Shown piece after piece: positions 2,496 through 24,380 of a DNA stretch of 26,345 nt. Each line of letters starts with the position of its first letter. Position 1 is the stretch's first letter. The translations under genes and the position numbers were made by a program. This stretch comes from a virus. The DNA is taken from the IMG/VR virus record IMGVR_UViG_3300030451_001287, positions 1 through 26,345 of that record. The stretch is one strand, 5' to 3'. Under the pieces are notes generated by a model. The model did no database searches. It was not told the DNA's origin and worked only from the letters and a program-made list of their open reading frames with translations.

Positions 2496-4675
2496 ATATC
2501 TAACTCACCTTGGTTTATATTCGTATCTTTCTTCTTGTAAGGACCACGTTTAGTATTTTTATTTACTGGTACTGTAGGTACATTTAGATCCATAGTTTGT
2601 TGCCTAGGATTAAATGGATTATCAACTCTTAAATCAAATACATCACTTAAGAATTTTTGAAGATTAAAATCTTGTGTACTAGGATGTGGTGATATTTCAG
2701 TTGCTTCTGTAGGAGCAGGTGTAGTAGTTACTGGTTGAGGATGTATTCCATTACGAGCAAGGAATGCTCTCACACCTTCTTGAGTTAGCGGCCCATTAAC
2801 TTTTACATTATATTCAAGGATAGTCTTACCTGATAAGACTCTAGGGTATCTAGGATCGTTACCAACACTAATTGAATCAATATCTTCTATACGGATAATA
2901 CCCTCAATAGGATTACCGTCTGAAGTTAAATGTAAATTAGGATTATAGTTTATAACTATACCAGGATATTCTAATTGTCCTTTTGCTGATTCTACGACCA
3001 TATCAAACGCATTTTTAGTATCAAATATAGGTCGATTATTTCTATCAGGTTCTACTACTATATGAAAATTCTTAGCATCACCAGTTATAAATTTAGGTGT
3101 ATAAGTCACACCACTTTGTAATGCAAGATCTTTTAATCTTTTCCAGATTTTATTACTTATTGCATAACCATGTTCTCCATAGACAACACCATGAATAAGT
3201 CGATCAATTCTTTCATTAAGAACTTCTCTTTGGTCTCTAAGTCCAGCAACCTCAGAACTACCAAAAGTCATAGAAGTTGATTTACCTGATAAACTTTCGA
3301 TTTGTTTAGTTAATGCATCTCTTTTAGTAGAAAGAAATTGGTAAAGTTTATTATACTTATCAATTTCTACTTTATTCATCCTTGATATTTCTTTATCTTT
3401 CCATGTCCTAGCATATTTCTGAGGCCAGCTAGATCTGAATTGATCTTTTAGTGATCTTCTAAATTTGCCAAGCTCAGACTCCATACTTATACGGTAGCCT
3501 TTAGTAGGATCACTACTTACCTTACCAAAGAAGTTTTTCTTTTTAATAATTTTAGGTAAGAATGTTTCACCAGTAATAGGATGAGTAAATCTAAAATTAG
3601 CTCTTTCGTTTACAAGCTCTAAAGGGTTTCTTCTATCTTTAATTCTATTCCAATTATTTGCTACATACTTATTTACTTCTTCATAGAATTGATATAAACC
3701 TTGTGTATTTTCATTACCTAGAGCAACTAATTCTTTATTAGCATCAGTAGTTTCTTTATTAATTAATGTAGGTCTTTGATTACCTTCATATCCAAAAGAA
3801 TTCCAACTAAGTCCAGATGTATCACCTTTATATAACGAAGCTAATGCATAAACAGAAGCAGGGTTTTCTGTTAGGCCAGGTATAATTGTTGATGGAGCTG
3901 TACGTTGTACACCTTCTACAAGGAATTTATACGTCTTAGCTATAGTAGCATAAGTTTCATGAGCTAATTTAGCCTGTGTGAAAGCAGGGCCATCCATATT
4001 AAAGATATCTTCAATAATAGCTTGAGCTGTAATATTTTTAGCATTTGAGCCAGGGACTGGTTTTATAACTTTAGTAGCAGGTGGTAATGCTTTATTTACC
4101 GGTAAGATTTGTGTACTAACTCCTGGTATTTGAGGTATTTTAGTAGGTAAAAATGGAAACACTTTACCTGTTCTAATCTGGTTAATTACATTAGCTTTTT
4201 TTACTATATCTTCATTAATACCAAGCATTCTATTAGCAAGCTTTGCAGTAGAATCAGTACCAAACTGATATACTGGACCTAATATTTCTCCTAAGAAATC
4301 AGCAGTATGCCATATTGTAGATTCTACAGGATACTCTGTCCAATTACCTTTAGTTTCTACCTTAGCTGCTTTTATAATTTCAATACCATCTAGTATTAAT
4401 TGCTGATTATCTGGTCCTAATCCTTCCCATTTATCTACAAACCATTGATTAATATTTTGATTAAGAGCTCCTCCTAGATCACGTTTGTTCCATTCATTAA
4501 TTAATGAGTACCCTTTTGGTTTTAAAGATCTTTTTCTATTTATAAGTAATTGTTCATAATTATTTAGTGAATCTTGAAAGGTAGGTTCTGGTTCATTATT
4601 AGGAGTACCTTGTCCAATAGTATGGCTATCAGGATAAAGTTCTTTCTGCTCTTTCTCATTCAGGAGTGTTTCCAT
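2492..4675 (-). CDS. Unrecognised 727-aa protein between the small and large terminase genes
   Basis: I do not recognise a family. The gene has a strong ribosome binding site (GGAGGTAATA before ATG) and is coupled to terL by ATGA, so it is clearly translated. The protein looks soluble and mixed helical. Residues 85-160 are conserved-looking and Trp-rich; a Pro-rich linker lies at about 170-210; a charged, helical, probably coiled-coil stretch occupies about 405-505. The region 520-640 looks beta-rich. The tail is Pro/Thr-rich and ends in a basic RGPYKKK patch like those in DNA-binding tails, then an acidic end. T7 has only small genes (18.5, 18.7) in this place. An ejected or capsid-associated protein, or a packaging accessory, is possible; neither is shown. 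Confidence 0.85.
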   Translation of the reverse strand: METLLNEKEQKELYPDSHTIGQGTPNNEPEPTFQDSLNNYEQLLINRKRSLKPKGYSLINEWNKRDLGGALNQNINQWFVDKWEGLGPDNQQLILDGIEIIKAAKVETKGNWTEYPVESTIWHTADFLGEILGPVYQFGTDSTAKLANRMLGINEDIVKKANVINQIRTGKVFPFLPTKIPQIPGVSTQILPVNKALPPATKVIKPVPGSNAKNITAQAIIEDIFNMDGPAFTQAKLAHETYATIAKTYKFLVEGVQRTAPSTIIPGLTENPASVYALASLYKGDTSGLSWNSFGYEGNQRPTLINKETTDANKELVALGNENTQGLYQFYEEVNKYVANNWNRIKDRRNPLELVNERANFRFTHPITGETFLPKIIKKKNFFGKVSSDPTKGYRISMESELGKFRRSLKDQFRSSWPQKYARTWKDKEISRMNKVEIDKYNKLYQFLSTKRDALTKQIESLSGKSTSMTFGSSEVAGLRDQREVLNERIDRLIHGVVYGEHGYAISNKIWKRLKDLALQSGVTYTPKFITGDAKNFHIVVEPDRNNRPIFDTKNAFDMVVESAKGQLEYPGIVINYNPNLHLTSDGNPIEGIIRIEDIDSISVGNDPRYPRVLSGKTILEYNVKVNGPLTQEGVRAFLARNGIHPQPVTTTPAPTEATEISPHPSTQDFNLQKFLSDVFDLRVDNPFNPRQQTMDLNVPTVPVNKNTKRGPYKKKDTNINQGELDI

Positions 4676-22335: not shown

Positions 22336-23487
22336 TTACCCGAATGCAGTTGGCTTAGTTCCTGTTCCAGCGAACAGTTCAACAGCAGCAGCTGGGTTAA
22401 GATAGTCTGCGCCCATAGCAAGACGTCCGAGGATAACATCACCTTGGTAGATGACTGATACATCCCCTGAAGTTACTTGAACTTGAGGACCGAGAGCTTC
22501 GACAACACCTGCAGCTTCTTTTTGGAAGATAAGACCACAAGAGTTAGCAAACTTAGCAGCTTGACCATAATCATTTTCAGTAATGTTATGCTCGTCTGCC
22601 ATTGCATCACCAACGAAAGATCCAGAATTACCTGGGTCAGCTACGTTAGCGTCTGTTGTTCCAGCAGTTGTACCATAAATAGTACCATACTTTCCAAAGA
22701 AAGGAATGTTCATTGACTTGTAGATCTTGATACCTGCAATTTCAATAATTCCATTACCCTTCTGTTTAGCGTCACCTTGCTGATCACGGTTAACTAATCC
22801 ATTACCATCTACAGCTTGAATTAGTTCATAGTATTGGCGTGGGTTAAGTACACCAACACGACCCTCACCACTTACTCCTTTCTCGTCTAGTGCAGCAGCT
22901 GCATCATAGAAAGCGTTTACTAGGAATGTAGAGTTGTAAGCATCAGAAAGTTGAGCATTAGTTCCAACACGGATTTGTGTTCCGCCTGGTTCTACATAGT
23001 TAGCTTTTGTGATAGGAGATGCTTTACGAGCAGCCTTAGTAACTGCACGGAAGATCTTCTTATCATAATTTTCTGCAAGAGCATATCCAATCTTTTTAGA
23101 TATCTCTCCACGTAGGTCATAATGAGCCAGAGTTTCATCTAATTCATAGACGAATGCACTGGAGATGAGAAGGTCATCACAAGTGATTGTCTTCTCTGCA
23201 ACTGGAGGTGCACTGTCACTATTACCTAATATTGAATTTCCTGGTGTATGATACTCAGCAGTTGTACGTCCTGTATAAATGAACTGTAAAGACTTACCGT
23301 TCTTTAAGGTACGCTTCATAACTAGATCCCTTGCAATTGTATTGCGTTGGAATCCTTTGAACATCTCACCAGAAAAAAGCTTGAGATACAGGGCTCTACG
23401 GTTAGCGGTAGTTGCTATAACACCGTTATCAGCACCTGGACCTGTTAACAGGGCTGTGTTAGAGCCACTGGTAGTTTGATGTGCCAT
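22336..23487 (-). CDS. Major capsid protein (T7 gp10-like)
   Basis: The 383-aa product has the T7-like capsid pattern: MAHQTTSGSNTALLTGPGAD at the start, RRALYLKLFSGEMFKGF, then DDLLISSAFVYELDETLAHY and a helical spine region YALAENYDKKIFRAVTKAAR. It adopts the HK97 fold in relatives and forms the shell. Length is close to gp10A (345 aa) and the slightly longer cyanophage capsids. No strong ribosome binding site is seen; the ATG is preceded by an AT-rich stretch after a structured leader. A terminator follows directly. Its N-terminus is mimicked by the 46-aa gene at 23737-23877. Confidence 0.95.
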   Translation of the reverse strand: MAHQTTSGSNTALLTGPGADNGVIATTANRRALYLKLFSGEMFKGFQRNTIARDLVMKRTLKNGKSLQFIYTGRTTAEYHTPGNSILGNSDSAPPVAEKTITCDDLLISSAFVYELDETLAHYDLRGEISKKIGYALAENYDKKIFRAVTKAARKASPITKANYVEPGGTQIRVGTNAQLSDAYNSTFLVNAFYDAAAALDEKGVSGEGRVGVLNPRQYYELIQAVDGNGLVNRDQQGDAKQKGNGIIEIAGIKIYKSMNIPFFGKYGTIYGTTAGTTDANVADPGNSGSFVGDAMADEHNITENDYGQAAKFANSCGLIFQKEAAGVVEALGPQVQVTSGDVSVIYQGDVILGRLAMGADYLNPAAAVELFAGTGTKPTAFG

Positions 23488-23684
23488 TAATCTGGATAAA
23501 ATTTAAAATATATATGTCTTCAGCTGAAATTTTTTTTTTGCGCTATTTATTTAATTGTTTGTGTGGTCTATCCCACCGTCTAGACGGCTAAGGGTATCCT
23601 CGTAAGGGCCAAAGCCAATTAGTCAGAGATCCGACATTGAGGTGTCTCTGACCTATGATAGTTAACATGTAGTGTTTCTACCAT
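23488..23684 (-). promoter_or_regulatory. Structured leader of the capsid gene
   Basis: About 200 nt without a normal gene lie between the upstream terminator and the capsid ATG. Visible structure: an 8-bp stem 23622-23629/23645-23652 (GTCAGAGA with TCTCTGAC), a perfect 12-base palindrome CCGTCTAGACGG (23576-23587), a run of nine A, and a TTCAGCTGAA palindrome (23519-23528). A late promoter must lie here or upstream if the terminator at 23685-23719 works, but I cannot recognise its sequence. A 29-codon frame with one internal TGA also lies here. Confidence 0.5.
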
Positions 23685-23719
23685 AATAAAGAAGGCTAGT
23701 AATCCTAAAACTACTAGCC
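23685..23719 (-). terminator. Rho-independent terminator after the 46-aa gene
   Basis: The minus strand has a perfect 8-bp stem, GGCTAGTA with TACTAGCC (23694-23701 and 23712-23719), around a 10-nt loop, followed by TTCTTTATT. It lies 17 nt after the stop of the 46-aa gene. It would end the hli-psbA-riboswitch-barrel transcript before the capsid leader, separating host-derived genes from the capsid gene. Confidence 0.82.
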
Positions 23720-23736
23720 ATAATGAATTGAATCTA

Positions 23737-23877
23737 CTATTCACCAATCAAGGCTTCTTCTAAAGATCCAGGAAGATCAGTATCTTCTTCATGTTCTTCT
23801 GGCTTGTCGTGATGTGCTTCTGGTGAGTAATTAGTTACATAAGCTGTATTAGACCCGCCTGTTGTTTGGTGTGCCAT
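23737..23877 (-). CDS. 46-aa acidic protein whose start mimics the capsid N-terminus
   Basis: The ATG overlaps the stop of the beta-barrel gene as TAATG. The product begins MAHQTTGGSNTAYVT, while the capsid begins MAHQTTSGSNTALLT: 12 of the first 15 residues agree, 11 of them in the first 12. The rest differs and is strongly acidic (HHDKPEEHEEDTDLPGSLEE). The DNA of the matching part differs mostly at third codon positions, so the peptide is conserved although the DNA has drifted. It may be a diverged partial duplicate of the capsid gene, or a small partner that uses the same N-terminal tag. The function is unknown; a terminator follows. Confidence 0.78.
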   Translation of the reverse strand: MAHQTTGGSNTAYVTNYSPEAHHDKPEEHEEDTDLPGSLEEALIGE

Positions 23878-24322: not shown

Positions 24323-24380
24323 GTCCACACCCCCGTTCCATGATGTGGCGTCATGCGTTCCCGTTAGGGAATGAACGGAC
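24323..24380 (-). ncRNA. Glutamine-II (downstream-peptide) riboswitch-like RNA
   Basis: On the minus strand the RNA forms P1 (CCGTTC 24373-24378 with GAACGG 24333-24338), P2 (TTCCC-TAAC-GGGAA, 24358-24371) and P3 (CATGA 24351-24355 with TCATG 24339-24343). The P3 loop CCACA (24344-24348) pairs with downstream TGTGG (24325-24329) to make a pseudoknot. The sequence CGTTCATTCCC...CGCATGA...TCATGGAACG fits the glutamine-II/downstream-peptide class of marine picocyanobacteria, which binds L-glutamine. The YRG peptide gene starts 17 nt after the core, as expected. It should tie expression of the peptide and the barrel gene to cell glutamine, and hence nitrogen state. Confidence 0.75.

Follow-up and report, generated by a model that had tools for sequence, protein, structure and literature searches.

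A mini-gene upstream of the capsid gene of cyanopodoviruses copies the N-arm of the major capsid protein, and its product may dock in the same groove

A second protein that shares the N-terminus of the major capsid protein (MCP) is known from T7, in which the minor capsid protein gp10B is a frameshift product of the MCP gene itself, and short peptides that temporarily or permanently fill the docking groove of a subunit are known from the donor-strand chaperones of pili and from encapsulin cargo peptides. In the capsid of P-SCSP1u, adjacent N-arms are wrapped by E-loops and neighboring capsomers are fastened by the N-arms (PMC10575957). In SPP1, the scaffold holds the MCP N-terminus in the procapsid, and this terminus reaches neighboring capsomers only after scaffold release (PMC6813328). 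The T4 internal proteins are highly diverse and share only their capsid targeting sequence (PMC3012670). Here we describe a family of separate mini-genes in cyanopodoviruses, the products of which carry a copy of the N-arm tip of their own MCP.

The stretch analyzed here (the window) comprises positions 1 to 26,345, or 26,345 nt, of the IMG/VR record IMGVR_UViG_3300030451_001287. It is a fragment of a T7-like cyanophage (Autographiviridae), with genes read on the minus strand in the order psbA, glutamine-II riboswitch, 117-aa PF24653 gene, 46-aa open reading frame (ORF), MCP and tail genes (Table 1). The MCP was identified by matches to PHROG 267, "major head protein" (profile match, E 3.5e-80), to Pfam Gp10A-like (E 4e-73) and to the P-SSP7 capsid, PDB 2xd8 (E 8.5e-162).

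Table 1. Features of the window at and around the 46-aa ORF.
Feature	Positions	Strand	Details and basis
Capsid N-arm mimic ORF, 46 aa	23737..23877	-	Product MAHQTTGGSNTAYVTNYSPEAHHDKPEEHEEDTDLPGSLEEALIGE; family comparison and dN/dS
Mimic residues 1-16, matching the tip of the MCP N-arm	23830..23877	-	Codon table, own-MCP covariation, codon test
Mimic residues 17-37, acidic linker, no regular structure predicted	23767..23829	-	Sequence; AlphaFold2
Mimic residues 38-46, conserved C-terminal SLEEALIGE, short predicted helix	23740..23766	-	Alignments; AlphaFold2
MCP, 383 aa	22336..23487	-	N-terminus MAHQTTSGSNTALLTGPGAD; PHROG, Pfam and PDB matches
MCP residues 1-16, N-arm tip matched by the mimic	23440..23487	-	Sequence comparison
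MCP residue 76 codon (presumed E-loop)	23260..23262	-	Column most strongly coupled to N-arm residue 3 and to the mimic
Cyanophage outer-membrane-like protein (OMP), 117 aa, beta-barrel, PF24653	23877..24230	-	E 6.6e-30; stop overlaps mimic start
Glutamine-II riboswitch RF01704, leader of the OMP-mimic block	24324..24380	-	53 bits, gathering score 33, E 9e-12

The first-pass annotation, which was made from the letters of the window, had described the 46-aa product as a copy of the MCP N-terminus followed by an acidic remainder, and both parts of this description hold. The N-termini (MCP MAHQTTSGSNTA, mimic MAHQTTGGSNTA) are identical at 11 of the first 12 residues. Over residues 2-12 the mimic shares 10 residues with the MCP, compared with 4 for the runner-up among the 163 window ORFs of at least 30 aa on both strands, and no other pair among the 27 long minus-strand ORFs has more than 5 identities. 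By direct count, residues 17-46 contain 11 acidic residues and one Lys. The MCP starts 249 nt downstream of the mimic stop, close to the 250 nt or so first given, and it was correctly noted that the DNA differs mainly at wobble positions, since 5 of the first 12 codons are identical, 6 carry synonymous third-base changes and 1 changes the amino acid. AlphaFold2 predicts the mimic to be mostly disordered (pLDDT 67, pTM 0.19), with a helix at residues 39-44.

A search with the 46-aa protein against phage records (tblastn) returned one marginal match, and relatives were reached via the MCP and a family alignment, with MCP loci collected from phage isolates and IMG/VR. Distinct cyanopodovirus loci in which the sequence ahead of the MCP extends for 450 nt or more number 162. 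In 101 of them an ORF of 25-80 aa that fits the pattern M.(.)[HQ]Q lies no more than 900 nt upstream (two of these are spurious). Approximately 19 more have a mimic that uses an alternative start codon or is slightly extended at its N-terminus, giving a total of about 118. Among isolates the mimic is present in the Prochlorococcus phages NATL2A-133 and P-GSP1, the Synechococcus phage S-RIP2, P-SSP10 (locus L002, in which its C-terminus is apparently frameshifted) and 9515-10a; it was not recognized upstream of the MCP in P-SSP7, S-SBP1, S-TIP37 or P-SCSP1d. About a quarter of loci have no recognizable mimic, which is therefore not essential. A 39-aa protein that ends in DPSY and carries no N-arm copy fills the mimic slot in P-SSP7 (L005, 2709-2828) and P-SSP3 (L007, 3134-3253), the MCPs of which start MANANQV or MADANQV.

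The mimic N-terminus follows that of its own MCP from lineage to lineage. The N-arm tip is hypervariable relative to the MCP core (entropy 0.90 vs. 0.60). Paired N-termini include MAQQATHS in both proteins, MAQQQSG (MCP) with MSQQQSG (mimic), and MAQQATTANANGPIYGG (MCP) with MAQQSTGGFGVANPVKY (mimic). The match is not always perfect: the MCPs of locus L014 and the window share one N-terminus, yet the L014 mimic begins MAHQNNAMRAG. Across 87 pairs, the mean alignment score to the own MCP is 23.8 as opposed to 16.55 ± 0.59 for shuffled partners (z 12.4, 10,000 permutations), and the tracking persists when one pair is kept for each of the 40 MCP N-terminal types. Controlling for the mimic C-terminus and the MCP core, the partial Mantel r is 0.43 (0 of 2000 permutations as high), and inside the H and Q classes the residues after xQ still track the own MCP (13.5 vs. 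10.3, P 1e-4).

This match is the product of selection on the peptide and not of recent DNA copying. The same codon is used at 40.1% of 633 shared-residue positions, against 39.7% expected from codon usage alone and 38.7% in non-own pairs; as codon choice at these positions agrees no better than expected, gene conversion and recent duplication are rejected. The mimic dN/dS is 0.19 over 29 independent close pairs; taken separately, residues 1-16 (0.26) and the remainder (0.155) also stay below 1. The peptide-level selection proposed at first pass is thus upheld by the codon test and dN/dS, in an ORF that is present in most relatives. A translation-start or 5'-end codon effect was also rejected, because the N-terminal motif is kept at an internal position, not at the start, in the Cys4-type and MEYKHQ-type members.

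A recombination relic, the other origin raised by the first-pass annotation, would be a functionless duplication of the MCP 5' end. The mimic and the MCP are indeed adjacent, and the phylogeny of the MCP is reportedly incongruent, with a possible tendency to exchange (PMC4646655). However, the codons at shared residues are independent, dN/dS is low, the C-terminal motif is conserved, and the mimic resembles its own MCP more closely than other MCPs, which linkage after one old duplication would not give. Considering its conservation in most relatives, purifying selection and lineage-by-lineage match, we reject the relic as highly improbable.

A candidate docking site emerges from residue coupling, which was measured among 194 distinct MCPs over 116 columns. 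For N-arm residue 3, which is H, Q or F, the strongest partner is MCP residue 76 (phi 0.74; next column 0.49), whereas columns 27-65, which are nearer to residue 3, reach a phi of 0.36 or less. The mimic equivalent of residue 3 obeys the residue 76 of its own MCP in the same manner: Q occurs with K76 in 36 of 36 cases, H with a non-K residue in 48 of 51, and F or M with K76 in 11 of 11. The window fits the H-with-non-K pattern, with H3 in both mimic and MCP before a conserved Gln, and T76. On a tree built from MCP residue 100 to the end, residues 3 and 76 changed on the same branch 12 times vs. 1.3 expected (P 3e-11), and the mimic equivalent and residue 76 did so 11 times vs. 1.3 expected, counts that recombination linkage may inflate, since about 600 nt span the mimic, the N-arm and residue 76. 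The identical residues of mimic and MCP are not explained by linkage alone, and nearer columns lack the same coupling. Mimic and own residue 3 disagree in three lineages; in two of these (L023/L026 and L124) the mimic agrees with residue 76, and in the third (L079 and relatives) it has H despite Q3 and K76 in the MCP.

Residue 76 presumably sits in the E-loop, a placement taken from HK97-fold order because the MCP structure model is poor. As its residue-3 equivalent follows residue 76, the mimic would enter the same groove as the N-arm. The first-pass suggestion that such a protein could occupy the N-arm site thus gains support from covariation with both the own N-arm and residue 76, and the docking itself is what we infer from these sequence patterns. 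A decoy that offers the N-arm to a host capsid-sensing defense or protease, and so spares the real MCP, would also account for a small accessory protein keeping an N-terminus equal to that of the MCP. However, it does not predict that the mimic should follow residue 76, we know of no host sensor that reads this N-arm, and we consider such a decoy very unlikely.

Behind the N-terminal copy, the mimics end in one of several modules, namely SLEEAL (65 members), PSY (12), Cys4 (7) and others (14), with a mean charge after residue 16 of -8.8 in the SLEEAL type and +7.1 in the Cys4 type. The basic Cys4 module, KRCGxCGDKKxxCRxQKKCLKGLL, is found at the C-terminus in L006, L009, L071, L082, L192 and others, and looks like a zinc finger. 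SLEEAL was not found by motif search in other proteins of at least 80 aa in the relatives. The competitor and the mini-scaffold considered at first pass are possible roles of the mimic, as is a cap. A scaffold-like C-terminus was rejected, as inspection and motif search gave no resemblance to T7-like scaffold sequences in cyanopodovirus relatives. A single conserved N-terminal module joined to C-termini as unlike as acidic SLEEAL, PSY and basic Cys4 is what would be expected of a capsid-targeting tag for small cargo ejected with the DNA, by analogy with the T4 internal proteins and their single shared sequence. On the other hand, the modules are tiny, at about 25-35 aa, and none has a Pfam match, and we regard ejected cargo as rather improbable.

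The arrangement of the locus points to how the mimic is produced. In the window its ATG shares bases with the stop codon of the preceding gene (TAATG); the same overlap, mostly TAATG, occurs in 71 of 98 cases, and Shine-Dalgarno-like 4-mers are near absent before the mimic (4 of 98). Together these features suggest translation by termination-reinitiation from the upstream gene. Of the 64 loci that reach 900 nt or more upstream, 49 have the glutamine-II riboswitch ahead of the mimic by motif search; in the 6 loci of the P-GSP1 group it lies downstream of the mimic, and in 9 it was not found. This motif was originally named Downstream-peptide, after the short ORFs that lie behind it (PMC2864571). 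Between psbA and the OMP-mimic-MCP block, RF01704 constitutes a nitrogen-status switch ahead of phage late genes, and it lies in the same interval in most relatives.

The intervals on either side of the mimic hold further small elements. Short peptides with a YRGxxYTK motif lie between riboswitch and mimic in many loci (for example, L079, 100-171), and often terminate at the TAATG where the mimic begins. In the window, a 42-residue ORF with a TTG start and one hydrophobic stretch (LWLVVLGLLAFFIMVETLHVNYH...) begins within the end of the mimic ORF (23619-23747, minus strand), and 35 of 101 loci have similar frames in the interval from mimic to MCP. A palindromic element, CCGTCTAGACGGTGGGATAGACC, occurs in 88 of 101 loci approximately 80-90 nt ahead of the MCP start (window, about 23570-23600, minus strand), and is possibly a promoter, processing or terminator element. 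Some relatives (L030, L107, L056 and L013, in the last at 4175-4245) have a tRNA gene between the mimic slot and the MCP, annotated as tRNA-Gly in NATL1A-7.

The family, its purifying selection, the peptide-level tracking of the own MCP and the coupling of residues 3 and 76 were all computed directly, and from them we infer physical docking, presence and location in the particle, and a job for the tail. In the explanation that we favor, to which we give an even chance, the first 16 or so residues of the mimic would, as a copy of the tip of the own MCP N-arm, dock in the acceptor groove of the shell, formed by the MCP E-loop in the region of residue 76, which receives the N-arm of a neighboring subunit. 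The mimic, probably made by termination-reinitiation, would thereby bring its short charged C-terminal module, in the window an acidic one ending in SLEEALIGE, to N-arm sites that are free on the procapsid or capsid. Candidate sites are those not yet filled at the stage before expansion, or the five around the portal that lack a penton.

The same tracking and the same coupling also count for an assembly regulator, a temporary placeholder or competitor on the N-arm site (or on the scaffold site of the N-arm) until expansion, which would slow premature or wrong contacts and would not be a virion component. Its gene lies immediately upstream of that for the MCP, and the behavior of the SPP1 N-terminus also counts in its favor: if the N-arm is held until scaffold release, acceptor sites would be free during assembly. 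However, conserved and exchangeable C-terminal modules would be superfluous in a pure competitor, and the mimic is not found in all phages; overall we judge a regulator of this kind unlikely. Returning to the docked mimic with its charged tail, a more general claim, that detached capsid N-arms are widespread as mini-genes coevolving with residue 76 and serve as a plug-in tag by which exchangeable tails, acidic or zinc-finger-like, are attached to the shell, is more tentative and falls somewhat short of even odds. If true, very abundant marine viruses would have an unrecognized capsid partner, and a natural short peptide would be held equal to the arm of a structural protein by repeated parallel change. 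It would also provide a ready-made tag to put cargo on HK97-fold shells, and the pair of residues 3 and 76 offers a one-residue test of N-arm docking specificity.

Novelty was judged against Pfam, PHROGs and the open-access literature, in which no description of the mimic was found; most subscription journals lie outside this coverage. The closest database entry is PHROG 23119 (44 aa), the same sequence family as part of the mimics, for which no function or capsid link is recorded. The window ORF matches it weakly (E 0.23, residues 12-46), while relatives that align with the window ORF match at 1.7e-29 to 9e-3 (NATL2A-133 member 1.7e-29, P-GSP1 member 1.5e-6); Cys4-type mimics do not match it. 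Like T7 gp10B, the mimic is a second product with the MCP N-terminus, however, it is encoded by a separate mini-gene and does not arise by frameshifting. With pilus donor-strand chaperones and encapsulin cargo peptides it would share the principle of a groove-filling peptide. We know of no T7-like phage that uses a prohead protease, the enzyme by which the T4-type targeting peptide is removed. T4 IPI, IPII, IPIII and Alt resemble the mimics in placing a short conserved N-terminal tag on diverse small proteins (PMC3012670), although the T4 tag encapsidates its proteins into the scaffolding core and the mimic tag copies the MCP N-arm. P-SCSP1u reportedly lacks a decoration protein, and no mimic gene is present in P-SCSP1d. 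The N-arm of HK97-fold MCPs such as those of P-SCSP1u and SPP1 is the source of the mimic sequence and marks its proposed docking site (PMC10575957, PMC6813328); in those phages the arm belongs to the MCP itself, whereas the mimic is a separate gene, the tag of which changes along with the MCP N-arm.
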